A DNA stretch of 64,000 bases from Rhodohalobacter sp. SW132. Lineage in GTDB: Bacteria > Bacteroidota > Rhodothermia > Balneolales > Balneolaceae. Below the pieces are notes generated by a model. The model saw nothing but the letters and a program-made list of their open reading frames with translations, was not told the DNA's origin and ran no database searches. Shown piece by piece: positions 14,861 to 36,458 of the stretch (position 1 is the first letter of the stretch; each line of letters opens with the position of its first letter). Both the position numbers and the translations under genes were made by a program. Location: assembly GCF_003390325.1 (NCBI RefSeq), contig NZ_QUOK01000003.1:372001-436000 (forward strand), in the 5' to 3' direction.

Positions 14861-15712
14861 CTATTTTTTAGGCTTTTTCACCACCATCCGGAGAAGGCGG
14901 CCTACACGTGTTTTCATTTTCTGTCGCGGTACGATAAAATCAAGGAATCCGTGTTCAAGCAGGTATTCGGCCGTTTGAAATCCATCCGGAAGATCCTGCC
15001 CGATCGTCTGGCGAATCACACGCGGACCTGCAAAACCGATCAAAGCACCCGGTTCGGATATATTAAAATCACCCAGCATGGCGTAACTTGCCGTCACACC
15101 GCCGGTCGTGGGATTGGTCATAATTGAAATGTAGGGAACGCCCGCTTTATCAAGCCGTGCTAACTTGGCTGATGTCTTCGCCATCTGCATCAGGCTGAGC
15201 ACGCTTTCCATCATCCGTGCCCCGCCCGATTGGGAGATAATCAGCAACGGATGCTTTTTTTCGAGTGCCGTATCGATCGCCAGTGCGAGCCGCTCACCTA
15301 CAACTGAACCCATACTTCCCCCGATAAAAGAGAAATCCATACAGGCGATGACAACATCCAGCTTATCCATTTTACCCGTACCCACCCGGCAGGCGTCACT
15401 CAGGCCCGATTTCTTCTGGGTGGCTTTCAGGCGATCTTTATACTTTTTCCGGTCTTCAAAATTCAGCGGATCAGACGGAAGAATATCATCCCCGATCTCA
15501 TTATAGGCACCGTCATCAAACAGAAATGAAAAATACTCTTTGCTGCCGATTCTGAAATGATATCCGCTCAGCGGATCCACCCAGAGATTATCCTCAAGCT
15601 CGCGCCGGTGAATCGTCTCCCCTGTTGTGGGAACCTTCACCCAAACGCCTTCAGGCATATCTTTCTTTTTGTCGGTCTGTATGTTGGAATCTTTTCGTTT
15701 AAACCAGGCCAT
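14861..15712 (-). CDS. accD: Acetyl-CoA carboxylase carboxyltransferase subunit beta, zinc ribbon lost
   Basis: A 283-residue subunit of the carboxyltransferase that makes malonyl-CoA for fatty-acid synthesis with AccA. The crotonase-fold core is intact (VIACMDFSFIGGSMGSVVGE, LLIISQSGGARMMES, ISIMTNPTTGGVTASYAMLGD, GFAGPRVIRQTI). The N-terminus aligns with the E. coli zinc ribbon (GVWVKVPTTG, RELEDNLWVDPLSGYH), but all four zinc-ligand cysteines are replaced, at Val27, Thr30, Asp46 and Ser49. The ribbon therefore cannot bind zinc in the usual way. The gene heads the accD-obg-dprA-DUF3109-rpoN run. Confidence 0.93.
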   Translation of the reverse strand: MAWFKRKDSNIQTDKKKDMPEGVWVKVPTTGETIHRRELEDNLWVDPLSGYHFRIGSKEYFSFLFDDGAYNEIGDDILPSDPLNFEDRKKYKDRLKATQKKSGLSDACRVGTGKMDKLDVVIACMDFSFIGGSMGSVVGERLALAIDTALEKKHPLLIISQSGGARMMESVLSLMQMAKTSAKLARLDKAGVPYISIMTNPTTGGVTASYAMLGDFNISEPGALIGFAGPRVIRQTIGQDLPDGFQTAEYLLEHGFLDFIVPRQKMKTRVGRLLRMVVKKPKK

Positions 15713-16095
15713 TTTATTTCTTTTTGTTGATGATAATTCGATAAAATAACGAATCTGCGATCAAGCTAAAATCTTTCGCAAGATATTTTGAGAATTAGAA
15801 GTTTGAAGGGGATAAACCAGGTTTACGTTTGCGGGATGAAGAGATTTTCAGGAAGGCGGTAAATGAGCACTTTTCTATTGAAGAATAGATCTGTTTATAG
15901 CAGAATCGGTGAAATAGCCAGTTCATGTAACTAATATTTCTAATTATTAGAATACACCAGGTAACCAATAAACCAATTAGGGCACAGAAAATACTTCCTC
16001 TTGCTCATTCGGCTGATCCGGCCCACTCCGACATAGTATTTTTACTCTAAATAAAGTATTTTATTAGTACGAATAAATACTAAACACGTACTTAT
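15713..16095. other. Intergenic region between accD and the toxin-antitoxin pair
   Basis: This 383-base gap lies upstream of both neighbours, which are divergent. Apart from the dyads just before the antitoxin start and a small AT-rich palindrome near 15934-15951 (TATTTCTAATTATTAGAAT), nothing gene-like is visible. Confidence 0.5.
16064..16092. promoter_or_regulatory. Candidate autoregulatory operator of the toxin-antitoxin pair
   Basis: Two overlapping inverted repeats end four bases before the antitoxin ATG: TTAGTA (16064-16069) with TACTAA (16078-16083), and AGTACG (16066-16071) with CGTACT (16087-16092). Phd/YefM antitoxins bind such dyads to repress their own operon. The assignment rests on position and symmetry. 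Confidence 0.4.
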
Positions 16096-16380
16096 ATGAA
16101 TATTTCCATTTCAAAAGACATTGAACCTCTCTCCGAGTTTCGTAAGAAATCAGCAGAGTTTATAAAGCGTTTAAAAAAGGAGAAACAGCCAATAATTCTT
16201 ACTCAACATGGTAAAAGTGCTGCTGTGCTGATGGATGTTTCAGAATTTGAACGTTTTACCAAGAAAATGGAAATGCTTGAAGATTTACTCGAAGCGAAAC
16301 AACAAGTTGAACAAGGGAAAACTTATTCCATGAAACAAGCCGAGGAGAGAATCGAAAAGCATCTTTCTAAATGGACGTAA
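16096..16380 (+). CDS. Phd/YefM family antitoxin
   Basis: A 94-residue protein whose N-terminal part matches the Phd/YefM fold: ISKDIEPLSEFRKKSAEFIK, followed by PIILTQHGKSAAVLMDVSEFE. A helical, charged C-terminal half (ERFTKKMEMLEDLLEAKQQV) would bind the toxin. It overlaps the ParE/RelE-type toxin gene by ten bases. Predicted to neutralise the toxin and, with it, repress the operon. Confidence 0.92.
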   Translation: MNISISKDIEPLSEFRKKSAEFIKRLKKEKQPIILTQHGKSAAVLMDVSEFERFTKKMEMLEDLLEAKQQVEQGKTYSMKQAEERIEKHLSKWT

Positions 16381-16670
16381 TATTTACCGATCAATTTCTT
16401 AGTCGTGTTGAAGAGTACACGGACTATATCGCCCTTGATCATGTTCCTGCCGCAATCAAATGGGCACGTGGTGTTTTTGAGCAGTGTCAGAAATTAAGCA
16501 ATCAACCGGAAAGTGGCAGAATCGTACCGGAATTCAGAAGAGCTGAAATCAGGGAGATTATTCACGGAAATTATCGGCTGATTTATGAATTGAAACCCAA
16601 ACAAATCGATATGCTTACAATCTGGCATACAAGGCAGATGTTACCAGATGATCCGTACAAGGGTGAATAA
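16371..16670 (+). CDS. ParE/RelE family toxin
   Basis: A 99-residue protein of the RelE/ParE superfamily. It has two N-terminal helices (DQFLSRVEEYTDYIALDHVP, AIKWARGVFEQCQKL), NQPESGRIVPEFRRAEIREI, and the conserved HGNYRLIYEL strand followed by the C-terminal IDMLTIWHTRQML. This order is the usual ParE-like arrangement. Whether it targets gyrase or ribosome-bound mRNA cannot be decided from sequence. It overlaps the antitoxin gene, so the two are translationally coupled. Confidence 0.92.
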   Translation: MDVIFTDQFLSRVEEYTDYIALDHVPAAIKWARGVFEQCQKLSNQPESGRIVPEFRRAEIREIIHGNYRLIYELKPKQIDMLTIWHTRQMLPDDPYKGE

Positions 16671-16721
16671 TGAGCTTATCATACGGTCGGGTCTACATTT
16701 ATTTGGACAATGCTATTCACC

Positions 16722-17396
16722 TCACTTCACCCCACTATTATTCACCTGCGCCAGCTCAAGATAATCGGGTTCGTAGGTTTCGATTATTTCCTTTTTGAAG
16801 CTGCTTCGTAAATCGTCATGCTCCCAAGCTGTGATCAGATTTTTTGCCGATATGGCTTCAGTCCCAAAAGTTTGAATCTCATCGAATGGATCAAAATTCA
16901 ACCGGTTCCAGCCGGTCCCGACGAGAATGGTGTTTGGTGTCAGTTTTTTTTCAATGTCAGAAATCGCCTCAACAGCCGAATCCGTTTCGGGCGTCAGGTT
17001 CTCACCATCCCATTGCAGAACCTGCACGTAGAGGTGTGTTCGGCGGGCATCGATAACAGATAAAATCTGTTTCGGAGATTCATCAAGCGGAAGCCCGGCT
17101 GCAAAGGAGATCAGCGTCGGGCAGGTGTAAAACGGGACATCCCTCCCGTAGAGAAATCCTTTAATTGCAGAAGCGCCAATCCGGAGGCCGGTGTACGAAC
17201 CGGGCCCTCCGCTGAATAGGATGGCATCCAGCTCGCTGATCTCAACAGAAGCCCTGTCGAGCAGCTCTTTTGTGAACGTAAAGAGTCGTTCCGAATGGAC
17301 GCCGCGCCCTTCAATCCGTTTCTCCCAGGTACGTCCGGCTCCCGTCTGAAGCGCCACAGAACAGACCGGTGTTGATGTTTCAATCGCTATTATCAT
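16722..17396 (-). CDS. tsaB: tRNA threonylcarbamoyladenosine biosynthesis protein TsaB
   Basis: A 224-residue partner of TsaD and TsaE in making the t6A modification at position 37 of ANN-decoding tRNAs. The ASKHA-fold start (MIIAIETSTPVCSVAL) and the family signature around LFSGGPGSYTGLRIGASAIKG are present, then a degenerate C-terminal lobe, normal for TsaB. It begins one base after the end of the DUF3857 gene and closes the pyrC-DUF3857-tsaB run. Confidence 0.93.
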   Translation of the reverse strand: MIIAIETSTPVCSVALQTGAGRTWEKRIEGRGVHSERLFTFTKELLDRASVEISELDAILFSGGPGSYTGLRIGASAIKGFLYGRDVPFYTCPTLISFAAGLPLDESPKQILSVIDARRTHLYVQVLQWDGENLTPETDSAVEAISDIEKKLTPNTILVGTGWNRLNFDPFDEIQTFGTEAISAKNLITAWEHDDLRSSFKKEIIETYEPDYLELAQVNNSGVK

Positions 17397-17397
17397 A

Positions 17398-19395
17398 TTA
17401 TAGTTTTTGTAGGTACCAGGTGCTGTTGCTCAGATCCACCCAGCGTTCATAAATTCTGCGTAACTGCCCGTACATATCGGCGGGGAACTCTTTTCTTGTG
17501 ATGTCAATCTCAAACGAATACCGCAATACGTTTCCGGTGATTGCGTACCGCTCATTCAGCTCGGCACCCGGCAGCCGGGTCTGACGCGTTTCTGCTGTAC
17601 CGTCGGTTCTGTATCCATCGGGCATCGTTAACTGATAGTTGATCATCAGATTTTCCGGGGCATCGAGCGTAATCGGTACCCGGCGCCGGGTTGATTCAAA
17701 CGGGTTACGAAACAGGTAACCCACCACCATCGGCCGAAACTCCAGGCCGTCACTAAAACTGGTTGCGTAACGGTTGATGGTAAAATCGATCTCAACCGCA
17801 GCCTCCCGGCTCAATCCTTCACTCATTCGAATTTCAGCCCGCTCCGTTTCCATTTCGGGATACATATCCAGGAACATCGATGTGGCAACCTGGCGCTGAC
17901 TCTCCCCCGCTTCCAGCCGCGATAAAATCTGCTGTGCCGGATATCCGCGGGTGTTGGACCGAAGTGTTCCGCTGAGATGCCCCTCTTCCGAAAGTTCCAG
18001 GTCCAGGAAAATGGTGAGGTCAAACACGCTTTTATCCGGACGGATTTCAATCCATTCGTGGCTGTTTTCACGAAGTAAAAATCCCTGCTCGTTGAACGAT
18101 TCCACCGGTATCAGATCCGGTTCACTGAACCGGAAGGATGCGTCCATCACATGTTCTTTTTCCCCGATCCGGCTGTGAACCAGCATCCGGTTAAACTGGT
18201 AGAGGGATGGAAACGACCTGTTGATCTGGCCAAAATCACGGCCGGAAATATAGAGCGGGTAGGCTTCAATCCCAGCTCCCCGGAGCAGTGTCAAAAGTGT
18301 CATATTGATCTCCGCCTGGTTAGCCGGTTCGGGACTCAGCACGTGGTCCAGTCCGTCATCCGCAAAAACCGCATTCATTCCGTTAAACTGAACTGTTTCG
18401 TTTACAAGCCGGAAGATGGAATCCTGCGCCATTTCAGGTTCATCAAAATAGCCGGCAATTTCACGGCCCCGTTCCATCAATTCCGTATAGGCTGAAACGA
18501 CGTTCTCCGGTGATGAATTTTTCCGGATCTGGGCGGCAACCAGCTCCCAGCTATTTTCCAGCGGCTGGCGCGGAACCCCGAATTCACTGATCATAAACAT
18601 CACCTTTCCGCGGATATCGTCTACCGATGAAACGTATGTTGTATGATCCACTGGAGGCACATTTTCAGCCCGCCACTCTTCCAGCAAAATCGGTTCGGGA
18701 CGCGAATAGCTGAATACGAGCGGAACCGAACTGGTATCGACCTCCTCTCGGATGTATTCAATATCAAAATCTACGTGTTGGGTAACGGCATCATACCGCA
18801 AATAACGCTCGTTTTGCAACGTAACTGATGCTTCGCGAACGGGTACCTGGTGTGCAAAGTAAAAATCGGGGAGCTCTTCAATATAACGGCGGTGCACCGA
18901 ATATTTGTACTCCAGAACCGCTCCGGCTACCGCCCCCGGCATCTCAAACTCCAGGATGTTGTAGCGCGTATTCAGCTCCGAACGGCTGATATCATCCTCA
19001 TCCAGACGTAACGTCCGGCCGTCGGGCAGATAGGTCACCCCTTCCAGGTTTCTCACCTGCTCCATGTTGTCTGCTTCATAAACCGGGATGCCTGTCAGCG
19101 CTGCATCTGCAATTTCAAGTGGGTCATCGGAGTAGATTTTAATCCGCACCAGGTGATCGATTACCGCATCCACACCGCCCGATTGCTCCACAAAACGAAT
19201 AGACGTCTTTTTGGAGAGGTATTCATGCGGATAATTGTGATCCGGCTCTCTGTCGAGATATTCCGCGGGCAGATTTCCGAAATCTGCGAAGAGATCACGA
19301 ATATCAACCTGTCCCCTGTTTTGTTGCGCAGCGAGCTCAACAGCAGAAGCAAACAGAAAACTGAGAGAAAAGATAAGGATCAGGTGCCGGTTCAT
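17398..19395 (-). CDS. DUF3857/transglutaminase-like exported protein
   Basis: A 665-residue protein with a clear signal peptide (LILIFSLSFLFASAVELAAQ, probable cleavage near residue 23). Residues about 55-230 match the DUF3857 beta-rich domain (LEFEMPGAVAGAVLEYKYSV). A transglutaminase-like region around residues 300-420 has lost the usual catalytic Cys context (LLTLLRGAGIEAYPLYISGRDFG). A DUF3858-like beta domain ends the protein. Such proteins are common and uncharacterised in Bacteroidota, probably periplasmic. It lies between pyrC (20 bases) and tsaB (1 base), with no evident functional link to either. Confidence 0.84.
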   Translation of the reverse strand: MNRHLILIFSLSFLFASAVELAAQQNRGQVDIRDLFADFGNLPAEYLDREPDHNYPHEYLSKKTSIRFVEQSGGVDAVIDHLVRIKIYSDDPLEIADAALTGIPVYEADNMEQVRNLEGVTYLPDGRTLRLDEDDISRSELNTRYNILEFEMPGAVAGAVLEYKYSVHRRYIEELPDFYFAHQVPVREASVTLQNERYLRYDAVTQHVDFDIEYIREEVDTSSVPLVFSYSRPEPILLEEWRAENVPPVDHTTYVSSVDDIRGKVMFMISEFGVPRQPLENSWELVAAQIRKNSSPENVVSAYTELMERGREIAGYFDEPEMAQDSIFRLVNETVQFNGMNAVFADDGLDHVLSPEPANQAEINMTLLTLLRGAGIEAYPLYISGRDFGQINRSFPSLYQFNRMLVHSRIGEKEHVMDASFRFSEPDLIPVESFNEQGFLLRENSHEWIEIRPDKSVFDLTIFLDLELSEEGHLSGTLRSNTRGYPAQQILSRLEAGESQRQVATSMFLDMYPEMETERAEIRMSEGLSREAAVEIDFTINRYATSFSDGLEFRPMVVGYLFRNPFESTRRRVPITLDAPENLMINYQLTMPDGYRTDGTAETRQTRLPGAELNERYAITGNVLRYSFEIDITRKEFPADMYGQLRRIYERWVDLSNSTWYLQKL

Positions 19396-19415
19396 AGATA
19401 GAAGTAACTGTTGAA

Positions 19416-20711
19416 TCAGCCGCCTATTGTGTTCTCCACGAGTCGGTTATTGTTAAAAATCGCAACGGCACGGCCGGTCATCTGTTGATTAAGGTACGGT
19501 GAATTTCGTGATTTTGACCGGACTTCCGACGGACTGAATGTCCACTTTTCATCGGTGTTGAAGATCGTCAAATTCGCCTTTTTCCCTTCGGCAATTTCGG
19601 GAATTTCCAGGTTCAGTATCTCCCGGGGTTTGATAACCAGCTTATCCAGCACCTGGTTAATTGTAAGAACTCCCGGTTCAACCAGCCGCTTTACGGTGAT
19701 ACTCCAGGCGGTTTCCAGCCCGATGATTCCGTTCGGGGCATAAATAAACTCTGCTTCCTTCTCTTCAATCGCGTGAGGCGCGTGGTCGGTGCAGATCACA
19801 TCGATCGTGCCGTCGGCCAGGCCTTCAATCATGGCATCTACATCATCCTGAGTCCGCAGCGGCGGATGCATTTTCACGTTCGTATCGAAGCCTCGTTTTT
19901 CAATTTCAATGTCGGTCAGGTCAAAATGATGCGCGCACACTTCGGTCGTCACATTGATCCCCTCTTTTTTCGCCTGCCGCACCAGGTCCACCGCCTTTCG
20001 CGTGCTGATATGAGCTACGTGAATGTGTCCTCCTGTAAATCCGGCGAGCAGAATATCACGGGCGATCATCGTCTCCTCAGCAATTCCGGGCGTACCGTCG
20101 AGCCCCAGGCGTGTGGAGACTTCTCCCTCATTCATGTGACCGGGACGCGAAAGGTCAAGATCTTCTTCATGGTTGATGATCGGCATTCCGAGCATAGAGG
20201 AATATTCCAATGCCACCCGCATGACGTGAGAATTGAAAACCGGGTCACCATCATCACTGAATGCCACGGCGCCACCTTTTTTCATATCGGCCATTTCGGC
20301 GATCGATTTTCCTGCGCGATCTTTGGTCACACAGCCGATCGGGTGCACGCTCACCGCCTCACCTTCCGCTTTTTTGCGGATATACTCCACAACATCTCGG
20401 GTGTGCGTCGCCGGTTTTGTATTCGGCATGCAGGCGACTTCGGTAAATCCGCCAAACGCTGCTGCCCGGCATCCGGTCTCGATCGTCTCTTTGTGTTCAA
20501 ACCCCGGCTCCCGGAAATGGACGTGCATGTCCATCCAGCCGCCGCTTATATATGCCCCGGCAGCGTCAAAAAGTTCTTCATCACCATTTTGATCCAGATT
20601 TTCGCCAATTTCTGTGATCGTGCCGTTTTGGATTCGAATATCCAGTTCAGAATTTCCATCGTAGCCGTTTCCGACCGGCCTGCCGTTTTTTATCAGAAGA
20701 TTTTGACTCAA
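19416..20711 (-). CDS. pyrC: Dihydroorotase (class I)
   Basis: A 431-residue zinc amidohydrolase that closes carbamoyl aspartate to dihydroorotate in pyrimidine synthesis. The metal-binding DMHVHFREPGFEHKETIETG motif, CMPNTKPATH, NHEED, HVAHISTRKAV and ICTDHAPH (catalytic Asp) are all present, as in class I enzymes of about 430 residues. It is transcribed from a 70-base leader directly adjoining the first 127-bp repeat array. Confidence 0.93.
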   Translation of the reverse strand: MSQNLLIKNGRPVGNGYDGNSELDIRIQNGTITEIGENLDQNGDEELFDAAGAYISGGWMDMHVHFREPGFEHKETIETGCRAAAFGGFTEVACMPNTKPATHTRDVVEYIRKKAEGEAVSVHPIGCVTKDRAGKSIAEMADMKKGGAVAFSDDGDPVFNSHVMRVALEYSSMLGMPIINHEEDLDLSRPGHMNEGEVSTRLGLDGTPGIAEETMIARDILLAGFTGGHIHVAHISTRKAVDLVRQAKKEGINVTTEVCAHHFDLTDIEIEKRGFDTNVKMHPPLRTQDDVDAMIEGLADGTIDVICTDHAPHAIEEKEAEFIYAPNGIIGLETAWSITVKRLVEPGVLTINQVLDKLVIKPREILNLEIPEIAEGKKANLTIFNTDEKWTFSPSEVRSKSRNSPYLNQQMTGRAVAIFNNNRLVENTIGG

Positions 20712-20783
20712 GGTACCTTTGATTTGATTGAATTTGACATCAAATATAGGCTGAAATCTGTTGAATTACGATTCGGAATTGAA

Positions 20784-21171
20784 TCTTCATCGGATGAATT
20801 CGCTTCATCCGATGAATCGTTCGAACAAGGCGCCTGGTTTATCGAGACCTGCAGTAGAGATCCGGACCTTAACCCACTCATCCGATGACGGGAAGTCGTC
20901 GGATGAGGAATCTTCATCGGACGATTTCGCTTCATCCGATGAATCGTTGGGGCAAATTGCCTGGTTTACCAAGACCTGCAGTTTAGATCCGGACCTTAAC
21001 CTACTCATCCGATGACGGGGAGTCGTCGGATGAGGAATCTTCATCGGACGAATTCACTTCATCCGATGAATCGTTGGGGCAAGTTGCCTGGTTTACCAAG
21101 ACCTGCAGTTTAGATCCGGACCTTAACCCACTCATCCGATGACGGGAAGTCAGCGGATGAGGGGTGGGATC
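20784..21171. repeat. Tandem array of 127-bp units, array 1
   Basis: Three consecutive units start at about 20784, 20911 and 21038. The landmark TTCATCGG recurs at 20786, 20913 and 21040, exactly 127 bases apart. Each unit holds two hairpins: TTCATCGGATGAA with TTCATCCGATGAA around a 5-base loop (one mismatch in units 2 and 3), and CTCATCCGATGAC with GTCGTCGGATGAG around about five bases. A conserved spacer of some 55 bases contains CCTGG, GACCTGCAGT and AGATCCGGACCTTAAC. The last hairpin has the variant arm CAGCGGATGAG. The array lies between the stop of the head-GIN gene and the leader of pyrC. Since 127 is not a multiple of three, it is not a protein repeat. Confidence 0.93.
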
Positions 21172-21841
21172 AATTTTCAACGGTTCGCAATCGGCTAGAA
21201 CCGCTGGATTGGTTAGAGATCTCTGAGGGATTGCCGTGTACAATAATCTCAGAAGATCCTGAGGAACGGGATTCCAGTTTTCCAGAAGCGTTTATTTCTG
21301 CCTTTGATGATCCACTGGTTCGAATTGATGCCGATTCTGAAACCAAATCCGGGGCAATAATTCTGGAACTGCCGGACATTCGGATCTCCAGAATATCAGT
21401 ATATCCACCTGCAAATATTTCCGTACTGCCGCTGCCTCTAATGGTGAACGTCTGATGGTGGATGTTTTTTAGTTCAAGGCGGTTCGAACCTGAGACGCTT
21501 GTCGCATTCAAACTCGTGGAAGGAATCTCAATTTCAACTCGTTTTGTGGGATTCAGGAATGCATTCTCCCTGGCGGTAATCACCAGGCGGCTCCCTTGAA
21601 CGGTTGAATCAATATTTTCAAGGATATTTGAATCACCTGTAATGCGAATCGGCCCATCCTCATCCCCATAAACGACTGTGCTGTTTGATCCGGTGATTCT
21701 GAGCTCAGAAAAGTGTCCGACATCCCGGTTTTCGGTGACTATATCGCCATTTCCCTTGATAGTATCCTGAGCAAATGAACCGACATTAAGGCAACCGGCA
21801 AGCAAAATTAATCCTGCAATCAGTAACGTAAATCGACGCAT
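21170..21841 (-). CDS. Head-GIN domain (DUF2807) putative lipoprotein
   Basis: A 223-residue exported protein. The start at 21841 gives MRRFTLLIAGLILLAGC, a signal peptide with an LAGC lipobox; a frame extension of 21 residues upstream has no such sense. The mature part is a DUF2807 beta-solenoid with recurring GSGS/SGSS turns (VSGSNRLEL, RGSGSTEIFAGG, MSGSSRIIAPD, SGSSEIIVHG). These proteins are frequent in Bacteroidota and their role is unknown, perhaps envelope-associated. Its stop codon adjoins the end of repeat array 1. Confidence 0.86.
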   Translation of the reverse strand: MRRFTLLIAGLILLAGCLNVGSFAQDTIKGNGDIVTENRDVGHFSELRITGSNSTVVYGDEDGPIRITGDSNILENIDSTVQGSRLVITARENAFLNPTKRVEIEIPSTSLNATSVSGSNRLELKNIHHQTFTIRGSGSTEIFAGGYTDILEIRMSGSSRIIAPDLVSESASIRTSGSSKAEINASGKLESRSSGSSEIIVHGNPSEISNQSSGSSRLRTVEN

Positions 21842-22021
21842 AGAGCTGTGTAATTTGATTAAAGTTGAATTCAGGTTACGTACATCAAAAACAGTTAGTT
21901 TCACTACATTTTAAACATAAAATTGCAGATACTTTATCTCTGACTTGATTTAATATAGTGTAGTAAAATCATAGGTTGAGTTTTCTCAAAATCGAGGCAA
22001 TACGAATCAAGAAATACTACC

Positions 22022-22633
22022 ATGCAAAGTTCATTATCCATCAAAACCGTCACCGGCAGTAGACTGATGCCATATACTGATAGCCTGGCCAGCCTGCGAA
22101 TCGAGGTTTTCCGGGAATTTCCCTATCTGTATGACGGATCGCAGGAGTATGAGCTGTCGTACCTCAAAACGTATCTGAATTCGGAAAACAGCATCGCCGT
22201 ACTTGTGATGGATGGAGATCAGGTTGTGGGGGCTTCCACCGGCCTGCCGATGACAGATGAGGAAGAGGATTTCAGACGGCCATTTCAGAAACATGGGTTA
22301 AATCCCGAAAACTATTTTTACTGCGGAGAATCGATTTTAAAGAGAGAGTACCGGGGACGCGGAATCTACCGCCGTTTATTTGAGGAGAGGGAATCCCATG
22401 CAAAAAAAATATCAGGCATCCATTTCACATGTTTTTGTGCTGTTCAGCGCCCGGATGACCACCCGCTTCGGCCTGATGATTACCAGCCGCTGGATCCCAT
22501 CTGGCAAAAATATGGTTACAAAAAAAAACCGGAGCTGCGCACCACCTATCGCTGGAAAGATATCGATGAAGAGTCAGAATCGGACAAAATAATGGTGTTT
22601 TGGGTGAAAGAAATTACAAGCTTCAGCGGATGA
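22022..22633 (+). CDS. GNAT family N-acetyltransferase
   Basis: A 203-residue cytoplasmic acetyltransferase. The GNAT acetyl-CoA site is visible as ESILKREYRGRGIYRRLFEERE (R-x-x-G-x-G/A type) around residues 101-122, preceded by VLVMDGDQVVGASTGLPM. Substrate unknown. The final codons (FSG-stop) run into the beginning of repeat array 2: the TGA lies inside a CAGCGGATGAGGG sequence that is also the terminal hairpin arm of both arrays. The original C-terminus may have been altered by the repeat. Confidence 0.85.
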   Translation: MQSSLSIKTVTGSRLMPYTDSLASLRIEVFREFPYLYDGSQEYELSYLKTYLNSENSIAVLVMDGDQVVGASTGLPMTDEEEDFRRPFQKHGLNPENYFYCGESILKREYRGRGIYRRLFEERESHAKKISGIHFTCFCAVQRPDDHPLRPDDYQPLDPIWQKYGYKKKPELRTTYRWKDIDEESESDKIMVFWVKEITSFSG

Positions 22634-23039
22634 GGGATCTTCATCGGATGAATTCGCTTCATCCGATGAATCGTTGGGGCAAGGCGCCTGGCAGATCGAG
22701 ACCTGCAGTAGAGATCCGGACCTTAACCCACTCATCCGATGACGGAAAGTCGTCCGATGAGGGATTTTCATCGGACGAATTCGCTTCATCCGATGAATCG
22801 TTAGGGCAAGTTGCCTGGCAGATCGAGACCTGACGTAGAAATCCGGGCCTTACCCGACTCATCCGATGACGGGGAGTCGTCGGATGAGTGACTTTCATCG
22901 GACGAATTCGCTTCATCCGATGAATCGTTAGGGCATGTCGCCTGGCATGCCGAAACCTACCGTAGAGATCCGGACCTTAACACACTCATCCGATGACAGG
23001 AAGTCAGCGGATGAGGGACTTTCATCGGATGAGTGGGGA
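22622..23039. repeat. Tandem array of 127-bp units, array 2
   Basis: TTCATCGG recurs at 22640, 22767, 22894 and 23021, again exactly 127 bases apart, giving three full units plus the start of a fourth. Hairpins and spacer match array 1 and the orientation is the same. The first unit here resembles the first of array 1 (GGCGCCTGG, CTGCAGTAGAGATCC), and the last hairpin again has the CAGCGGATGAG arm, followed by GTGGGGAT. The array fills the gap between the convergent GNAT and GshB-like genes and touches both stop codons. Confidence 0.93.
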
Positions 23040-24086
23040 TTAAATTGTTGCAAGGAGCTTATTACTAATTAAATCCGTGTAATTTTTTCTGTATTGAACT
23101 TTGTTTTCGATCGCCTGGATTACAGGGATTGAAAAATCCACACCTTGGAGTTCGCTTGCTCCCTGCAGTCCTCCGGGACTAAATACGTTAATCTCCATCA
23201 GTTTATCACCCACAATATCGAGCCCAACCATAAACATGCCGTCAAGCACAAGTTTCGGCCGAATGGTATCGACAATTTCGAGCATCGTATCATCAACTTT
23301 TACCTTCTCGGCACTTCCTCCGGCAGACATGTTGCTTCGAATATCCTCGCTTTCATTTACACGACGGATCGCCGCGTATTTCCCTTTCCATTTTAGCGCA
23401 TCACCATTTACCACGAATAACCGCACATCACCCTCAGTGGCTTTAGGTAAATATTCCTGGGCAATAACATATCCGTCGCGGCTAATCGCCTCGATCATCT
23501 GGTTCAGGTTTACTGCATCGTCCTCTTTTACCAGAAAAACACCTGCACCACCGGAGCCCTGGAGTGGCTTCATGATAATGTTGCCCCCCTGTTCTTTATG
23601 AAATTCCTGGATCTCTTTCGGGTCACGTGTAATGAGGGTATGCGGCCTCACGGATTCAGGAAAATGCTGGAAATACATCTTGTTAACGGCTTCTGACAGG
23701 CTATTGGGATCGTTCAGGACAATCACACCGTGCCTGAGGGCAAGCTGACCGAAAATCACAGATGCGTTTTTAGCCCATCCCCTGCCGACAGGTTCCGAGG
23801 CAGGATCATTGCGCAACAGAAGCACATCCAGGTTGTCAGCCGTTATCTTTTCTTCTATTGCACTATCATCCTTGATAGCCTTTATATAGGTCTTGGTGGT
23901 CTTATATTTATTGCCCGAAGCCCTTCTTGCTGTCGCCCCCATATGGCCGTCCGGATAGTACACCAGATCGGCAACACCGGTAAAATAAACTTCGTGGCCC
24001 AGGTTATGCATTTTCAGACCCAGGTAAACGGATGTATACTCCGCTATTTCGGTTTCAATATCATTTATGATCAGTGCGATTCTCAT
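23040..24086 (-). CDS. GshB-like ATP-grasp ligase
   Basis: A 348-residue ATP-grasp enzyme of the glutathione synthetase (GshB) type. Visible motifs are the N-terminal pre-ATP-grasp MRIALIINDIETE, the ATP-loop MKPLQGSGGAGVFLV (172-186), NMSAGGSA (252-259), and the Mg-binding GLDIVGDKLMEINVFSPGG (288-306; Glu298, Asn300). No glutamate-cysteine ligase gene is nearby, so glutathione is not an obvious product. It is the last gene of a minus-strand run, 47 bases after the QEGLA protein. Inference: it joins an amino acid or small peptide to a carboxylate, working with the neighbouring peptidase-like proteins. Confidence 0.88.
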   Translation of the reverse strand: MRIALIINDIETEIAEYTSVYLGLKMHNLGHEVYFTGVADLVYYPDGHMGATARRASGNKYKTTKTYIKAIKDDSAIEEKITADNLDVLLLRNDPASEPVGRGWAKNASVIFGQLALRHGVIVLNDPNSLSEAVNKMYFQHFPESVRPHTLITRDPKEIQEFHKEQGGNIIMKPLQGSGGAGVFLVKEDDAVNLNQMIEAISRDGYVIAQEYLPKATEGDVRLFVVNGDALKWKGKYAAIRRVNESEDIRSNMSAGGSAEKVKVDDTMLEIVDTIRPKLVLDGMFMVGLDIVGDKLMEINVFSPGGLQGASELQGVDFSIPVIQAIENKVQYRKNYTDLISNKLLATI

Positions 24087-24133
24087 TTAATTCTCTTTTA
24101 ATTTTATGATTGTGGATACATTCTTGAAATTAC

Positions 24134-26065
24134 TTATTCCTGCAAGAGGTCTAAGACGGATGATCCCTTTTTTAGCTGCTCAAGTTTCTCTCTGGCTCCG
24201 GGAAATTCCAGGTAGCGCGGACTCAGAGGTGCCGGACGCAAAATTCGACGATGCAGCAGCTCATTTATCAGCGGAAGATAGTCTTCACGAATTTTTCCGA
24301 TCAGGAGAGGCTGAAGCTCGTTGCCATTTTCCAGCCATTTAAGAACACGCATCAGTCCTTTCAGGTATATTGCGTCTTTGGTAAGTCCTCCCCCGCGGTA
24401 CACGCGCATTGTGATGGTGAATGCCTCCCGGGCATCGAACTCGTGATCTTCATGCAGAATATGAAACGATTCGACAAAATCAGCCCCGCGCATGATGGCC
24501 TGAACGGTAATTACCCTTGCTGCCAGAAGCCGAAGACGGCTCGGCAGCAGCCCCCCGACCAGGTATTCACTGAGCACCGCGAGGCCTTCCTGCAGCTCTT
24601 CATATCGGGGCAGCCCGCAATAGAGCAGTTTGAGCGGCTGGGCTTTCCCATTGTAATAGGTGAGGATGTGAGTACCCACTTCATGCTGTATCAATGCCTC
24701 TGCCCGCGCAGTTGAGATGCGGGCATCCGTCCCTATATGCAAATTTCCATTCGAAACGAGTAGCCCGGCGATATCATCCTGAACACACACCCTGGCATCA
24801 ATGGGTTCATACTGAGTATGATAGAAATCGATCTCTTTTCGGGCCATTTCGGCAAAATCATCCGGCGATATCATGTTTTGCTCGCTGCTGTCTGAATTCG
24901 GGGAAATGGCCGACAGCAAATCCGCAGCAAGGTTGGTCACCGATTCTTCAAGCGGACCGTAATATTGCATGCTTCCCGGCATGAACTCAGGCTTTCCGCG
25001 TTCTGTGAGCAGAGTCAGCATTTTATCGAGTTCGCTCCGTTTTTCCCGAAACATAAACTCCAGAGTTGGGTCTTCAACGCGTTCAATAGATAAATTATAC
25101 AGCTCGCGTTTGAGGATCTCCGGGTCTTCCGACATCAGCCTGTAATGAAACAGAGGTGTTTTTTTGAAATGATTGCTCTTGAAATACGACCAGGCTTCAT
25201 GAATATTTATGGGTGTAACCAATTGCAGAAAACTGAAACTGTCATCAATTCGGGCCAGATCAATATCTATTTCACGGGCCGGGCGAGTCATTAGTTGTCG
25301 TCCCAGCATTTGAAAATGAGAAACATCCAGATTCGTTTGGATTCTGACAAATTCAAAAAATGTACGGTTTAATGCCTTTGAGAGCTCTCGTGCCATTTTT
25401 CTGAGCAAAAGAGGATATGCTCTTCCGCTTTCGGAATTGATGTAAAACGGACGAATTTCCAACCCGATCAGCAGGGCCCCCATCTCTTTTAGATCATCCG
25501 CTTCCAGTAACTGCATCAGTCCGGGGGGATGGCGGTCATCCAGAGATATTTCTGCAGTTGCATTCTGATGTCCAATCAGGATTTTCTCCAGGTCTTTTTT
25601 CAGGTAGCTTACACTTGAATAGGCCACCTCGCGTGGTGCCCGGATATGAAAGTCTGCAGCAGGATCGGATTTTGTTGAAGGACGACCTGATTCTGCATCA
25701 TCCTCTTGAACCGTATCTCCGGATTTGAATGTGGGCTGTTCCGGCCAAATTTCAACAATCAGAAATGCTCCACTTTTTTTGGAAATTGTTTTTGCGATCG
25801 CACGCACGAGCGCCTTCAGATCTTCAAGCTTGCCATCGGCTGGTGCAATCAGAAAGGATGTCTGGGATCGCACCAACAGCCTGACCGCCCTGTTATCCCC
25901 ATCCTGCGGTTTCCGAAATACTACCAGAAAGGGTAAGGGGCGATCGAAGTGAAGCATTCCGCCGTCAGGCAGTTCCATTCGGACCTGCTCTCCTTCTTTA
26001 AGCTTTTGAGTCACATCCGCGATCACCTCTTCAAATGGTTCACTTACGACCTGGCTTTTTTTCAT
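24134..26065 (-). CDS. QEGLA-motif (DUF1704, MATCAP-like) putative metallopeptidase
   Basis: A 643-residue protein of the bacterial family often labelled flavohemoglobin expression-modulating QEGLA protein. The zinc-peptidase signature HEVGTH is at 461-466, and QEGLAVLSE (492-500) supplies the third ligand region. In eukaryotes the same DUF1704 fold forms the MATCAP enzymes, which remove the C-terminal tyrosine of tubulin. The N-terminal half (1-390) is an extra domain of unknown role. No signal peptide is seen, so it is cytoplasmic. Its ATG overlaps the stop of the amidohydrolase-like gene by one base, indicating tight coupling. The QEGLA function in bacteria is not established. Confidence 0.88.
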   Translation of the reverse strand: MKKSQVVSEPFEEVIADVTQKLKEGEQVRMELPDGGMLHFDRPLPFLVVFRKPQDGDNRAVRLLVRSQTSFLIAPADGKLEDLKALVRAIAKTISKKSGAFLIVEIWPEQPTFKSGDTVQEDDAESGRPSTKSDPAADFHIRAPREVAYSSVSYLKKDLEKILIGHQNATAEISLDDRHPPGLMQLLEADDLKEMGALLIGLEIRPFYINSESGRAYPLLLRKMARELSKALNRTFFEFVRIQTNLDVSHFQMLGRQLMTRPAREIDIDLARIDDSFSFLQLVTPINIHEAWSYFKSNHFKKTPLFHYRLMSEDPEILKRELYNLSIERVEDPTLEFMFREKRSELDKMLTLLTERGKPEFMPGSMQYYGPLEESVTNLAADLLSAISPNSDSSEQNMISPDDFAEMARKEIDFYHTQYEPIDARVCVQDDIAGLLVSNGNLHIGTDARISTARAEALIQHEVGTHILTYYNGKAQPLKLLYCGLPRYEELQEGLAVLSEYLVGGLLPSRLRLLAARVITVQAIMRGADFVESFHILHEDHEFDAREAFTITMRVYRGGGLTKDAIYLKGLMRVLKWLENGNELQPLLIGKIREDYLPLINELLHRRILRPAPLSPRYLEFPGAREKLEQLKKGSSVLDLLQE

Positions 26066-26871
26066 TACAGACCACCCGCGTGCACTTCTGTAATTTGTTT
26101 ACTATGAGTCAGCAATCCCGGAAGTGTAGATTTAAGAGCATTGTAAAGCGCGTTGAATTTCACCGGGTCGAGTTCATGAGTCCATTCATTCATAAAGATT
26201 TTTTTAAACTCAATAGCAATGGCGCAGCTCTGGTCGCCAAATTCCTGTTGTATCCAGCGTGAGAAATGGCCACCCTTAAAACGGATATTCTCACCCACCG
26301 TGAGGGGGCCACCCGGGTAATTGAACGTGCGAAGATCATTGGCAAGCCCGTCCACGACCGCCCCCCAGACATGCCTGTTCAGATTTTCCGTACCCAAATT
26401 TACATCGGGATTGCCGGCCGGATCAGCCGGTTCTGCATGCGGGCCCTCTCGCATATGATTGTAGCAGTGTATGTCGTAAACGATAACGTAACCATATTTC
26501 TGGATGATGCGGCCCAGAAATACTCTCGAATCTGCATAAAACCTGTCATACATGGCCAAAGATTTTTCTACCAATTCTTCCTCAGGATACTCTTTCCATA
26601 CATTGAGGCCCCACGCATCCTCTGGTTTACGGTACACAGCTAAACTGCGTTCACGGTTCAGGTCTACTTCGAACCGGGATTTCCTGACAATAATACGTGA
26701 CGGAACAATCGTGGTAAGTAAGTCTGTATGTGGATCTTCCTCGCGCAACCGCTCTGAATCAGTGAGGTTGTAGAGGGGTTTGAGCACGTTTCGCACATCA
26801 TGCCCGCTATGGAGTGCTACAGCCACAACAGGACCTTCTCCGGAATAAAATCTATATGATTCTCTGGACAT
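26065..26871 (-). CDS. N-formylglutamate amidohydrolase-like protein
   Basis: A 268-residue protein of the FGase/HutG-like family (zinc amidohydrolases related to carboxypeptidase-fold enzymes). Visible features are VALHSGHDV near residue 20, EEDPHTDLL (about 40-48), FEVDLNRER (about 66-74), IVYDIHCYNHM and IRFKGGHFSRWIQQEFG. No histidine-degradation genes are near, so hydrolysis of N-formylglutamate is doubtful; a glutamyl or aminoacyl amide in a peptide is equally possible. It is coupled to the QEGLA gene by a one-base overlap, a pairing I recall as recurrent in other bacteria (COG3930/COG3931). Confidence 0.87.
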   Translation of the reverse strand: MSRESYRFYSGEGPVVAVALHSGHDVRNVLKPLYNLTDSERLREEDPHTDLLTTIVPSRIIVRKSRFEVDLNRERSLAVYRKPEDAWGLNVWKEYPEEELVEKSLAMYDRFYADSRVFLGRIIQKYGYVIVYDIHCYNHMREGPHAEPADPAGNPDVNLGTENLNRHVWGAVVDGLANDLRTFNYPGGPLTVGENIRFKGGHFSRWIQQEFGDQSCAIAIEFKKIFMNEWTHELDPVKFNALYNALKSTLPGLLTHSKQITEVHAGGL

Positions 26872-27312
26872 TTTTTAACTCCTGAAAGGAATCTTCTCTT
26901 AAAATCTTAATTTTAAAACTACCTTTTAGTCTTTACCTACAGACCTGTCTCTTAAAACTTCTCTCACTTCTATCTCTTATTGTAATTGCAAAAACTCAAT
27001 CAGGTTCCATGAATCTCAATTCATGTACACAGGCAACCTATACCTGGATATAATTCTCTAATATTCTTTAGTTGGTGGTTTGATACTTATTGGCTCAGCT
27101 GACTCCCACAGCTGGCAATATTGAATACGAAAGGAGACCTAATGACTCTTATTTATAAGAACGTCTTCATATGGTAATACGTATTGAGTACTATAGTAAA
27201 ATCCTGTTTCAGTAAATTCTGGAGAATCCCAATTTTACGTGGCTTATTTAGAGCGGTAACTTTTTCGAATGGCATCGAACGATGTCAGCATGCAGTGGCC
27301 GGCAAACCACCA
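26872..27312. other. 441-base gap, probable promoter region for the amidohydrolase-QEGLA-GshB run
   Basis: No gene is seen. The gap contains TAATACGTATTG at 27175-27186, matching the palindrome before the DinB-fold gene. Its size suggests that the three downstream genes have their own promoter, separate from the ATP-grasp/SET gene. Confidence 0.4.
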
Positions 27313-28791
27313 TCATGACATACTCCCGCTATCCTCTCTTTCCGTCTTTTTCTTAACGTAGACTGAAACGTGCTCCCCATATTTTTCCCTCACAAAATCC
27401 GACCTGTAATCGGTTCCTTTTATCAGTCCGCGACAGTCATTTGCCCCGCACTTGCAGGAAAAAGGCTCCATGATCTCATTGCAGAACGTGGCATAGTCAA
27501 GAGTGATCTCCTCTCCGGCCCGGATTGATCTGCGGGCGGTCACATTCAATCCCGTCAGCCAGACATTGGGATCGCAGGAGTGATTTATTGGAGTCCACTC
27601 ATCGGGGTCCGGACTCCACATCACATAGATCTCGTCGCTAATCGGCCATGCATACTGCCTGAACCACCTCTTTTTTTCTTCACTCCAGTTGTTCATCACG
27701 TGTGAACGACTGACCAGGTGGTGTTTCTGTTCCTCATGTTCAAAAATGAGCTCATCCTTCAAAATATCCTTTGTGGCTACAATTCGATAACCATATTCGG
27801 GGTGAAATGTCCGCTCCCATGGTTTTTGGAAGACGCGATTCATGGCTGATTCAAGAATGAGTTCCACAAAATGTTCGTGGCCGCGTTCGTCATTCAAAAG
27901 AATGAGATCGGCGCTCCCTTCAGCTCCGGGAGGATAGAAGATTCCGCAGTTTGGGTTGATCTCAAGCATATAGGCCTCGTTATTTTCATTCACGCGCAAA
28001 TCGCACCGCCCGTAACCGGTTCCGTTTAATCCTTTAAACAGGCTTCGGGATGCATGCATCAATTGATCTGCAAGCGCTCTCTCTTCAACCGCCCTGGTTT
28101 TCATACCACTGTAGTTGATCCATTTCAGATCAAAATGCTTGAACCGTTCTCCCGGCGGAAACAGAAACTCAAGGGGTTCATAGGCTGCCGGATGATCCGG
28201 ATTATCGGGATTTTCAGCAACAAGAACCGTGAATTCGCGTCCTTCGATAAACTCTTCCACCATAGCTTGCCCAAACCGGTCGATCATGATCCGGGCCTGC
28301 TTGAGCAACTGTTCACGGTTTTCGACACGTGAGGATGACGTAAGGCCGATACTGCTGTAGCTGTTCGGATGTTTTACGATGAGCGGATATTGAAGATTGC
28401 GTGTTTCGGTTTTGAGATCATCCGGGTTAGTGATGATCACATGACCGGGAACCCTGACCCCGTAATACCGGCACACCATTTTCATCAGGTCGCGGGTTGG
28501 GTCGTAGAATGAGCTGCCGGCCCCGGTAAAGGGCACGTTAAACCGCTCCAGGGCCTGCACCACTTCAATCCCGGCCCGGTCCTCATCCCAGCTGCCGTCG
28601 CAAAGGTTTACGAAAACATCAAAACCCTGCGAGACCAGTTCCGTCACGCGGCGGATAGCCGTTTTTTTATGCAGAAAATGGTGCTCGATTTCATGTCCCT
28701 TAAAATATGACTCGGGTGAAGATGCCATGTCGTGGGATTTCATGGGTGAATCCGATGATTCATAGGCGCTTTCGAGAATGCATATTTTCAT
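27313..28791 (-). CDS. ATP-grasp ligase fused to a SET-domain methyltransferase
   Basis: A 492-residue two-domain protein. Residues 1-320 are a D-Ala-D-Ala-ligase-like ATP-grasp domain: IVKHPNSYSSIG (Lys140 for ATP), MVEEFIEGREF (177-187), and GRCDLRVNENNEAYMLEINP (261-280; Glu277 and Asn279 for Mg). Residues about 330-465 are a SET domain: YGYRIVATKDILKDELIFEH, NHSCDPNVW (403-411, the S-adenosylmethionine-pocket knot), AGEEITLDYATF (425-436, with the catalytic Tyr), and a post-SET-like CKCGANDCRG (446-455) with Cys437. The fusion implies that ligation and lysine or amine methylation act on the same substrate. The reading frame is continuous, so it is not an artefact of adjacent genes. Confidence 0.88.
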   Translation of the reverse strand: MKICILESAYESSDSPMKSHDMASSPESYFKGHEIEHHFLHKKTAIRRVTELVSQGFDVFVNLCDGSWDEDRAGIEVVQALERFNVPFTGAGSSFYDPTRDLMKMVCRYYGVRVPGHVIITNPDDLKTETRNLQYPLIVKHPNSYSSIGLTSSSRVENREQLLKQARIMIDRFGQAMVEEFIEGREFTVLVAENPDNPDHPAAYEPLEFLFPPGERFKHFDLKWINYSGMKTRAVEERALADQLMHASRSLFKGLNGTGYGRCDLRVNENNEAYMLEINPNCGIFYPPGAEGSADLILLNDERGHEHFVELILESAMNRVFQKPWERTFHPEYGYRIVATKDILKDELIFEHEEQKHHLVSRSHVMNNWSEEKKRWFRQYAWPISDEIYVMWSPDPDEWTPINHSCDPNVWLTGLNVTARRSIRAGEEITLDYATFCNEIMEPFSCKCGANDCRGLIKGTDYRSDFVREKYGEHVSVYVKKKTEREDSGSMS

Positions 28792-28802
28792 GACGGAAGG
28801 TA

Positions 28803-29292
28803 GTCTTTAATCATAAGTGGTTTAATTCCCCGACCCATTGATTCGGAAAACATAAAAGTCCCCCTTTGAAGGTAATCTCACAAATATTAGCCAACAATAT
28901 ATTTTTCCCTTGGTACTTTTGAGCGTTCAAAAGTACCCAAAAACCGCCGGGCGAATGATTCCTTCAGGCGGGCTTTGCGGTCCGTTTTGCGATGTAAAAA
29001 CAATGGTCCATCTCACTTTGTTACTTTAATCTAAGATTTGGCCGGTATGTTTTTACAAACATCGCATACACTCCCCGAAAAGCACCCACCGCCTTCAGAA
29101 ATCAGAGGCCGGTGAATCTTGGGTAAACAATAAGATCATGAATTACAAAAAAAATCCAGCAAAATTTAAATTCTAAAGTTAGTAACATTGCTTTTGAGGA
29201 GGACGCGAACGGAGTGAGCAGAATAAACTCCATATTGACCAAATAATTATGGCTTCTAATTTGATACCTCGTGGGCTCTGCCCCGAGGTAGT
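28803..29292 (-). repeat. Mosaic intergenic repeat, copy 2
   Basis: On the minus strand it begins at ACTACCTCGGGGCAG, directly after the TGA of the gamma-glutamyltranspeptidase gene, and ends with GGGTCGGGGAATTAAACCAC and TTATGATTAAA, twelve bases before the ATP-grasp/SET start. Both ends match copy 1 at 1913-2087. The internal 300 bases (about 28880-29190) are unlike copy 1 and include GCGGGCTTTGCGGTCCG. No gene is credible here. Confidence 0.75.
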
Positions 29293-31017
29293 TCATTCAC
29301 CGCGTGCAATTCCCCGAATTCTCGGATCCGCCCCTCCTCTCCACTGGTTGAGCGCCTGCACCCATTCAATTCCATGGACACCGCTTTCCATTTCAGTAAT
29401 GTTCACCCGGTGGCCCATTTGCTTCAGCTCGGGCCCGGCCAATTCGGCGTCGGTTCCGTATTCAAGTTCGAGTCCGTCGCCGCGATGCACTACATTGGGC
29501 AGATTGATAGCATCCTGCACTGAGAGCTCCCAGTCAATCACGCCTACCATCGTCTTGACCACGTACCCGATGATGCGGCTTCCGCCCCTGGAGCCTATCA
29601 CCAGCCTGGGATCGCCATCGGGGCTCATCACAAAAAAAGGAGACATCGAACTTCGCGGACGCTTACCGCCCTCAACACGGTTGGGAAGCGGTCGTCCGTC
29701 GATCTCAGAAGTAAATGTGAAGTCAGTCAGCTGGTTGTTTAAAATAAACCCGTTAGTCATAATCCGGCTTCCGAACGGTACCTCGATGGAGGTCGTCATG
29801 GAAACCCAGTTGTCGTCTCCATCTGCAATCGAAAAGTGACTCGTTCCGGTTGTCTCCTGCTCGTCGGGCAGCGTGACATCATCCAGCTCAGGTTCCATCA
29901 GCTCTGGCGATCCGGGCTTTGGGTCCTCCATTGCGAGTTCACGATCGATCAGCGCGGCCCGCTCCCGCAGGTAGTCCGGACAAATGAGTGCGTCCACCGG
30001 CACATCAGTGAAGTCGGGATCACCAATGTAGATTGCGCGGTCGGCGAAGGCAAGCCGGCTCGCTTCGGCAATCAGGTGGGCAACTTCGGCCGAGTTCGGC
30101 TCCATCGATGCAATATCAAACTGCTCGAGAATGCCCAGAATCTGAAGTACGGTAATTCCACCTGAGGATGGCGGAGCCGGTCCGCAGAGTTCGTGACCCC
30201 GATAAGCGCCGCAAACCACTTCCCGCTGTTTCGGTTCGTAGCCGGCGAGATCATCCAGGGTAATATCGCTGCGGCGGGGCCGGCGCGAACGGGCGGCGTC
30301 TACAATATCATCCGCAATTTCACCCTCCAGAAGTGCTGATGGTCCTTCATTAGCGATACGGCTTAGCGTTTCGGAAAGCTCCGGGTTGCGGAGCACCGGC
30401 TCATCTCCCCCCGACTGCTGGACAAGATACCGGCGCAGGTCACCAAAAAAACGAAGCGAAAAATCCCGCTCAACCTGTCGTTTCAGCTGATCCGGATACG
30501 GAACGCCCCCGGCTGCAGCAGTGATGGCTGGTTGAAACAACTCTGCCCATTCCAAACTCCCGTGCTGCTGATGGGCTTCGTATAGCATAGCCACAGTGCC
30601 CGGCACACCAACAGAGGAGCCGGTCGGAATCGCAAGGTATAGCGGCATGGGACGGCCAAACAGCCACGTGAACCGATCTACCGTGGCGGCTGCGGGAGCC
30701 GTTTCTCGTCCGTCGAACATTACCATTTCGCCGGTTTCCCCGTTGCGGAACATCATGAAGGCTCCGCCTCCAATACCGCTTTCGGCGGGTTCGACAAAAG
30801 TGAGCATCATCTGCACAGCCACGGCTGCGTCCACTGCATTTCCGCCGCTTCGAAGCATGTCCAGGCCAGCCTCAACCGCCAGGTCATTCGCAGCCGCAAT
30901 CATGAATCGATCCGCCAACTGCTCTTCAGGCTGCTGGACGGGTGTTAGATTAGGAGACCGTTGACCTTCACACGCCTGCAGCACAACTACCAGCAGCATT
31001 ACAGGCAACATCCTCAT
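29293..31017 (-). CDS. ggt: Gamma-glutamyltranspeptidase
   Basis: A 574-residue Ntn-hydrolase that cleaves or transfers gamma-glutamyl groups outside the cytoplasmic membrane. The start at 31017 yields MRMLPVMLLVVVLQAC, a lipoprotein signal; the frame opens 27 residues earlier at 31098. The large-subunit signature AANDLAVEAGLDMLRSGGNA and the self-cleavage site TTGTSHFSIADG are present; in the long frame the predicted nucleophile is Thr419, the new N-terminus of the small subunit. GSRGGSRIIGYVV near the C-terminus completes the family pattern. It is the first gene of the minus-strand ligase and peptidase neighbourhood, although a 500-base repeat separates it from the next gene. Confidence 0.92.
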   Translation of the reverse strand: MRMLPVMLLVVVLQACEGQRSPNLTPVQQPEEQLADRFMIAAANDLAVEAGLDMLRSGGNAVDAAVAVQMMLTFVEPAESGIGGGAFMMFRNGETGEMVMFDGRETAPAAATVDRFTWLFGRPMPLYLAIPTGSSVGVPGTVAMLYEAHQQHGSLEWAELFQPAITAAAGGVPYPDQLKRQVERDFSLRFFGDLRRYLVQQSGGDEPVLRNPELSETLSRIANEGPSALLEGEIADDIVDAARSRRPRRSDITLDDLAGYEPKQREVVCGAYRGHELCGPAPPSSGGITVLQILGILEQFDIASMEPNSAEVAHLIAEASRLAFADRAIYIGDPDFTDVPVDALICPDYLRERAALIDRELAMEDPKPGSPELMEPELDDVTLPDEQETTGTSHFSIADGDDNWVSMTTSIEVPFGSRIMTNGFILNNQLTDFTFTSEIDGRPLPNRVEGGKRPRSSMSPFFVMSPDGDPRLVIGSRGGSRIIGYVVKTMVGVIDWELSVQDAINLPNVVHRGDGLELEYGTDAELAGPELKQMGHRVNITEMESGVHGIEWVQALNQWRGGADPRIRGIARGE

Positions 31018-36347: not shown

Positions 36348-36458
36348 AGCCTTCTCGGTTCGGCGAACCGAGTTACATAGTTCAAGCCTTCCCGGTTCGG
36401 CGACCCGAGTTGCATAGTTCAGGCCTTCCCGGTTCGGCGAACCGAGTTACATAGTCTT
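36348..36458. repeat. Tandem array of three 37-bp units
   Basis: CGGTTCGG recurs at 36356, 36393 and 36430. Each unit has a hairpin CTCGGTTC-GGC-GAACCGAG (or CCCGGTTC with partial pairing) followed by TTACATAGTTCAAGCCTT or a near copy. Units are directly contiguous with no unique spacer, which rules out a CRISPR array. It is related to the single palindrome at 3634-3652. Confidence 0.88.

Follow-up and report, generated by a model that had tools for sequence, protein, structure and literature searches.

Several described repeat families of bacteria each resemble, in part, the locus analyzed here. In Porphyromonas gingivalis, BrickBuilt and PgRS/464 consist of tandem repeats inside a MITE; as here, the tandem core lies in an intergenic MITE with short TIRs present in tens of copies, many of which lack one or both TIRs, and no internal transposase is described (PMC4596501). 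IS630-derived MITEs are represented by Correia and RUP, both named in PMC2817692. With the elements described below, such MITEs share their short non-coding form and TIRs located next to TA. The REPINs of Pseudomonas fluorescens SBW25 likewise unite two hairpins in one dispersed unit and occasionally form ordered tandem clusters (PMC3116915), and the enterobacterial BIME-2, similar in this respect to our arrays, is a tandem unit of two palindromes with spacers (PMC2817692). The GTAG-15 REP dimers of Anabaena variabilis also place a hairpin pair within a longer inverted repeat, with spacers of similar length and dissimilar sequence, and occur in unidirectional and convergent intervals (PMC3733652).

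The window, that is, the entire 64,000-nucleotide stretch of the Rhodohalobacter sp. SW132 genome analyzed here (contig NZ_QUOK01000003.1, positions 372,001 to 436,000), contains two arrays of 127-bp units that belong to a previously unnamed repeat family in Balneolaceae, one that represents an already known kind of system. No such family is described in the titles and abstract openings, mostly from outside the subscription journals, that were retrieved for repeats of Balneolaceae or Balneola and for MITE or REP in Bacteroidetes and Salinibacter.

Architecture and genomic site of the arrays

The two same-direction arrays of three 127-bp units each, noticed earlier in the sequence, were recovered both by TRF and from the unit coordinates (Table 1). 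TRF delimits array 1 at 20781-21162 (period 127, 3.0 copies, 91% matches) and array 2 at 22627-23029 (period 127, 3.2 copies, 87% matches). All six units follow the same plan, namely, a 31-nt hairpin 1, a 60-nt spacer and a 31-nt hairpin 2, with the two hairpins starting 91 bp apart and 5 nt separating hairpin 2 from hairpin 1 of the next unit; the orientation is the same in both arrays. The 13-bp arms claimed in the earlier note were found in all 12 hairpins: each arm spans 13 positions, of which 11-13 form Watson-Crick pairs, around a loop of 5 nt. The non-hairpin spacer it described is present in every unit, at 60 nt rather than about 55. Partial hairpin arms flank array 2 on both outer sides. 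Folded as ssDNA, a single unit yields z = -4.4, and array 2 folded as RNA yields z = -7.6. The window also contains, at 36348-36455, 2.9 tandem copies of a separate 37-bp repeat.

Table 1. Features of the array region, in window coordinates
Feature	Positions	Strand	Basis or remark
Array 1, three tandem 127-bp units	20781..21161 (20781-20907, 20908-21034, 21035-21161)	+	TRF, unit coordinates, covariance model R1 matches
Hairpin 1, array 1	20786-20816 (unit 1a), 20913-20943, 21040-21070	+	
Hairpin 2, array 1	20877-20907 (unit 1a), 21004-21034, 21131-21161	+	
60-nt spacer, unit 1a	20817..20876	+	
Array 2, three tandem 127-bp units	22635..23015	+	TRF, unit coordinates
Hairpin 1, array 2 (starts)	22640, 22767, 22894	+	
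Hairpin 2, array 2 (starts)	22731, 22858, 22985	+	
Partial hairpin-2 right arm, left of array 2	22623..22634	+	contains the GNAT stop
Partial hairpin-1 left arm, right of array 2	23021..23033	+	few nt from the gshB stop
pyrC-like dihydroorotase	19416..20711	-	Pfam; conserved 5' stretch, with array 1 immediately upstream
DUF2807 (head GIN domain) protein, in the interval separating arrays 1 and 2	21170..21904	-	Pfam
GNAT acetyltransferase, last residues repeat-derived	22022..22633	+	Pfam, comparison with G002
Glutathione-synthetase-like ATP-grasp protein (gshB), convergent with GNAT across array 2	23040..24086	-	Pfam

Arrays 1 and 2 have retained a common order of units: unit 1a is closest to unit 2a (93.4%), above its likeness to 1b or 1c, and the last units of both arrays carry a common CAGC variant, which is frequent in the other subfamily of the SW132 genome. 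Because of these two similarities, arrays 1 and 2 probably descend from one multi-unit array.

Stop codons adjoin the arrays on three of the four sides, as first observed: the TGA of the DUF2807 gene (21170-21172) lies 8 bases past the last hairpin of array 1, that of the GNAT gene (22631-22633) falls within the partial hairpin arm, and the TAA of gshB occupies 23040-23042. For comparison with relatives, pyrC served as the synteny anchor, gshB being unusable because only distant paralogues are present there. The stretch upstream of pyrC is conserved in two congeners up to about position 20775, and array 1 starts within some 10 bases. In one congener (G002), 211 bp separate pyrC from the divergently oriented GNAT, its immediate neighbour; both DUF2807 and the arrays are missing from that interval, so GNAT is an old neighbour of pyrC. 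Hence, of the "two-gene island" originally proposed, the DUF2807 gene is indeed missing from this interval in G002, whereas GNAT is a long-standing resident. The C-terminus of GNAT reads ..MVFWMKKLDSEK in G002 and ..MVFWVKEITSFSG in the window protein. In the Great Salt Lake congener (G003), the stretch upstream of pyrC contains no array. Given the absence of arrays at the matching sites of G002 (both arrays) and G003 (upstream of pyrC), either this lineage acquired the two arrays or the relatives lost them, acquisition being the simpler reading.

Dispersed copies and TIR-bounded elements

The 5.08-Mb SW132 genome (45 contigs; G000) yielded 63 matches with array 1 as the query. A wider search used covariance model R1, whose 34 source units comprise 6 from the window, 16 dispersed in the SW132 genome and 12 from G003. 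Among 58 genomes of the family, R1 matched seven, with 53 matches in SW132, 37 in G003, 21 in G029 and 1-5 in each of four others; some places appear on both strands, so there are fewer distinct places than the 53 and 37 matches suggest. Scores of at least 100 bits, counted by eye, were reached by 28 matches in SW132, including 6 from the window, and by 14 in G003. Two congeners with incomplete genomes, G001 and G002, gave no R1 match. The exact hairpin-2 pattern was found in ten stretches of three MAGs in the GTDB collection (one genome per species, 84,980 species, possibly not including the SW132 genome itself): GSL.Bin13, which matches G003; Balneolaceae GEM2.Bin42; and Balneolaceae CSSed165cm_265, which matches G029. 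The carriers are a few salt-lake bacteria, around whose chromosomes the repeat is scattered. The possibility that the repeats occur only at this locus, which would have spoken against the earlier note, is contradicted by this dispersal in the SW132 genome and in relatives, and the genome-wide search that the note proposed revealed a dispersed, mobile-element-like family. Among the R1 matches, tandem arrays in SW132 are limited to the two in the window. Solo hairpins are also present among the dispersed copies, and one of these, at L212, is absent from the matching place in L161. Beside solo hairpins 1 on contig C15 of SW132 (L015, L018, L178), we also observed a dispersed motif, AGACATGGTATTTCTCAGG.

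The hairpins are 86-92% alike between the window units, the main subfamily of SW132 and the G003 units, and the spacers only 34-62% alike between the same three groups; for the window spacers, the average likeness is 62% to those of the congener and 34% to those of the main dispersed SW132 subfamily. The spacer length is 58-62 nt in all 34 aligned units, and the GEM2.Bin42 spacer, read by eye, is of about the same length (~58-62 nt) and by appearance of a third type. Across the 34 sequences, the columns of the left arm of hairpin 2 are nearly invariant. The covariation for which a check had been suggested was found only in part: 3 of 26 pairs show base changes on both sides (9 cells, compared with a shuffled mean of 2.4), and further standard pair types are not above shuffles, 265 of 500 of which reach the observed value. 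Conservation of the hairpins is thus chiefly one of sequence, and pairing is modestly supported.

In SW132 and G003, the module usually is a single unit within a 205-212-bp element, the ends of which are TIRs (TAGTGTC..GACACTA) terminating in TA; the G003 element reads TAGTGTTGTGTCATCGAT.., followed by hairpin 1, 59 nt, hairpin 2 and .. GACACTA. At a threshold of at most 9 edits, at least one TIR is kept in 22 of 36 scored SW132 loci, with both TIRs in 11, only the left in 6, only the right in 5 and neither in 14; two of the 38 places, having no orientable hairpin, were not scored. At this threshold, 1000 random stretches each produced one left and no right TIR, the right TIR being sought in one stretch for the null and in two for the elements. 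A looser threshold gave 12 loci with both TIRs, 6 with the left, 6 with the right, 10 with none and 4 unscored. No TIRs are detectable at the window arrays, where the best candidates differ by 13-16 edits, equal to random.

In G003, locus L037 contains three tandem units within a single TIR pair, over 457 bp. This is a probable intermediate towards TIR-less arrays, and the window arrays can be derived from such an arrangement by loss of the ends. Because the window arrays have no TIRs, we infer their descent from a TIR-bounded form from the shared core and from L037.

One 426-bp element copy and a like copy at C1:1067702-1068056 have another repeat inserted in the spacer. Two copies of the element (L176 and L177) carry within the spacer a second repeat, whose ends are AACCTGAGTTC.. 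and ..GAACTCA. In L180 and L175, the element occupies the same interval between orthologous genes of two genomes with different spacer types, so simple vertical descent is not an explanation. The pair L180:1-5402 and L175:512-4464 is at most a possible orthologous insertion, the intervals differing by extra ORFs.

Similar TIRs bound other elements in G062, which belongs to another genus of the family; these are about 140 bp long, contain other inner hairpins and give 58 pattern matches. Dozens of them, for example L099:7689-7828, measure 138-140 bp, have the ends TAGTGTTATGTCAAAGAT and TAGTGTCGTGTCAACTGT and enclose a TCATCTGACGAG hairpin. Two neighbouring MITEs of G062 with similar ends have a single TA in common, which suggests TA insertion. 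A different two-hairpin tandem array, with a unit of about 148 bp and hairpins CCACCCGACGGGTTATCCGTCGG.. and CCATCGGATGGATTGCCCATCCGG.., was observed at ~1430-1830 of L130 (G071:C1:684289).

Origin of the arrays and competing explanations

The reading that we favour, and consider reasonably probable, is that the arrays, which are without TIRs, arose when the core of a small non-autonomous, MITE/REPIN-like mobile element of some Balneolaceae was amplified in tandem. It is based on the dispersal of the core, the ~210-bp TIR elements, L037 and the absence of the arrays at the matching sites of relatives. The core would be hairpin 1, a spacer of about 60 nt and hairpin 2, and the elements would have spread by means of a transposase supplied in trans and no longer recognisable here. 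Near-identical hairpins may then have allowed the units to multiply by slippage or unequal exchange, and this would explain the breakpoints inside hairpins. The TIRs would have been lost from the arrays. At the 3' ends of genes, the arrays presumably survive because they do no harm there, with the hairpins serving at most as mRNA 3' structures.

As to the mobilising enzyme, many element ends carry TA, which is the target of IS630-type elements, and these ends would resemble those of an IS630-type MITE. The SW132 genome has no match to DDE_3, which we take to be the IS630-type domain, and the TIR does not surround any of the 14 DDE_Tnp_1 loci found in SW132, G003 and G062. An autonomous transposon with the same TIR was also considered and rejected, paired TIRs bounding only 105-494-bp elements in the loci examined. 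IS630-type mobilisation is a guess from the element ends.

The principal competitor, which we regard as unlikely, is a REPIN- or BIME-2-like system: a RAYT (Y1 tyrosine transposase) would mobilise the two hairpins as a REP doublet, and the arrays would be REPIN clusters of the ordinary sort. Such a system would fit the fixed-distance hairpin doublet, the variable spacer of constant length, the tandem clusters, the extragenic 3' placement and the six Y1_Tnp matches of the SW132 genome. A search for Y1_Tnp in G000, G003, G024, G029 and G072 gave 11 further matches in three relatives, but the linked RAYT-type transposase gene raised in the earlier note did not emerge, the module being absent within about 1.5 kb of any of the 6 SW132 or 11 relatives' loci (one match with E 0.74 is noise). 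The RAYT loci inspected closely carry other palindromes, such as AGCGCCGTAGGTGCGGC, and G029, a genome 76% complete, contains the hairpins without a Y1_Tnp match. Moreover, the hairpin feet, which read AATC/GATC/GATT/GACT, TCGT, CCCA-like and GAAT-like, include no GTAG or CGTC tag of the REP/REPIN type, and hairpins 1 and 2 resemble inverted copies of each other at most weakly, with a likeness of 21-23 of 31 positions when inverted against 18-20 of 31 in direct orientation. In a 5.6-kb contig of G003 (C17), a module is located about 1.9 kb from a RAYT gene; it was discarded as a linked pair, that RAYT being flanked by another palindrome. The Y1_Tnp genes at L032 (CAGGGCGGTGCCCTG) and L034 (CCCGAATGGGGTTG) are each surrounded by a separate palindrome family, which suggests that several REP/RAYT systems coexist in the SW132 genome. 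At L031 (G000:C10:1233-4577), a RAYT gene is contained in a roughly 1.07-kb block, part of which is repeated in tandem; the block has palindromes of the GCGCCGTAGGTGC type, and its ends are TAATGTCGTGTCAACGAT.

Less likely still is a RAYT-independent counterpart of REPINs, in which an enzyme or a host protein would recognise the hairpins about 90 bp apart (start to start) as a self-standing replicating module. If this were the case, the module would exist in TIR elements, in TIR-less arrays and as solo hairpins, with the spacer swapped freely at 58-62 nt, and the three spacer lineages (window/GSL.Bin13, main SW132 subfamily and GEM2.Bin42) would be independent fillings of one recognition frame. 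The combination of constant spacer length and variable sequence makes such a recognition distance testable.

Selection for a structured regulatory RNA or a two-way 3'-end element, which would end or protect transcripts from both sides, appears improbable. Of the 38 places in SW132 considered outside the window, 15 are convergent, 20 co-directional and 2 divergent, and one is inside a 114-aa ORF, that is, 37 fall between called ORFs. Convergent intervals account for 15 of these 37 places, compared with 13 of 128 other neighbour pairs (p = 6.6e-5), and divergent intervals for 2 of 37, compared with 23 of 128 (p = 0.07). These statistics cover 38 of 41 places (three neighbouring ones on C15 were omitted) and are rough, the ORFs having been called with a simple greedy script. 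The same kind of placement is known for REPs (PMC3733652). It fits either promoter avoidance or a 3'-end role, and the enrichment between convergent genes makes such a role, as a barrier or RNA stabiliser, possible. Array 2 is bracketed exactly by two convergent stop codons, its RNA fold is strong, and 7 of the 34 sequences show a two-sided change at pair 10-32 of hairpin 1. Against this, no intrinsic terminator was predicted at any hairpin (2 sites were predicted elsewhere in the region, compared with a mean of 2.7 in shuffles), Rfam 15 gave no match above the gathering score in window positions 15000-30000, further standard pair types are no more numerous than in shuffles, and the arrays are absent at the relatives' matching site. 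Of the functions suggested in the earlier note, a structured RNA is accordingly disfavoured, the covariation being weak and the spacer not conserved, and a two-way transcription barrier gains from the convergent enrichment and loses from the terminator predictions.

A protein-binding array with selected spacing (sites for gyrase, a nucleoid protein or a partition-like system) would account for hairpins conserved beyond pairing and for a distance held at 58-62 nt despite spacers 34-62% alike, but is very improbable, with no such protein known or found and the array form confined, in the SW132 genome, to the two window arrays.

Relation to described repeat families

The family differs from each of its closest described counterparts. 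The core unit is 23 nt in BrickBuilt and 41 nt in 464/PgRS, compared with 127 bp and two hairpins here; the TIRs of BrickBuilt (GAGACC..) are IS5-like, those of the present family have a different sequence, and most copies here are single-unit (PMC4596501). Correia and RUP are set apart by the internal hairpin pair and the tandem amplification found here, and by the lack of a DDE_3 transposase in the SW132 genome. The hairpins of SW132 are 91 bp apart, whereas the spacing in SBW25 REPINs is 71 or 110 bp; REPINs reach hundreds of copies rather than tens, and here outer TIRs are present and no hairpin-flanked RAYT was found (PMC3116915). The REP dimers of A. variabilis differ from the hairpins described here, which have no GTAG or CGTC tag, 13-position arms and other sequences (PMC3733652), and BIME-2 differs in that neither a RAYT link nor GTAG was found here (PMC2817692). 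The family combines REP-like hairpin pairs with MITEs, each a known theme in itself, and L037 provides what is probably a visible intermediate, illustrating how tandem hairpin arrays can arise within a TIR-bounded element.
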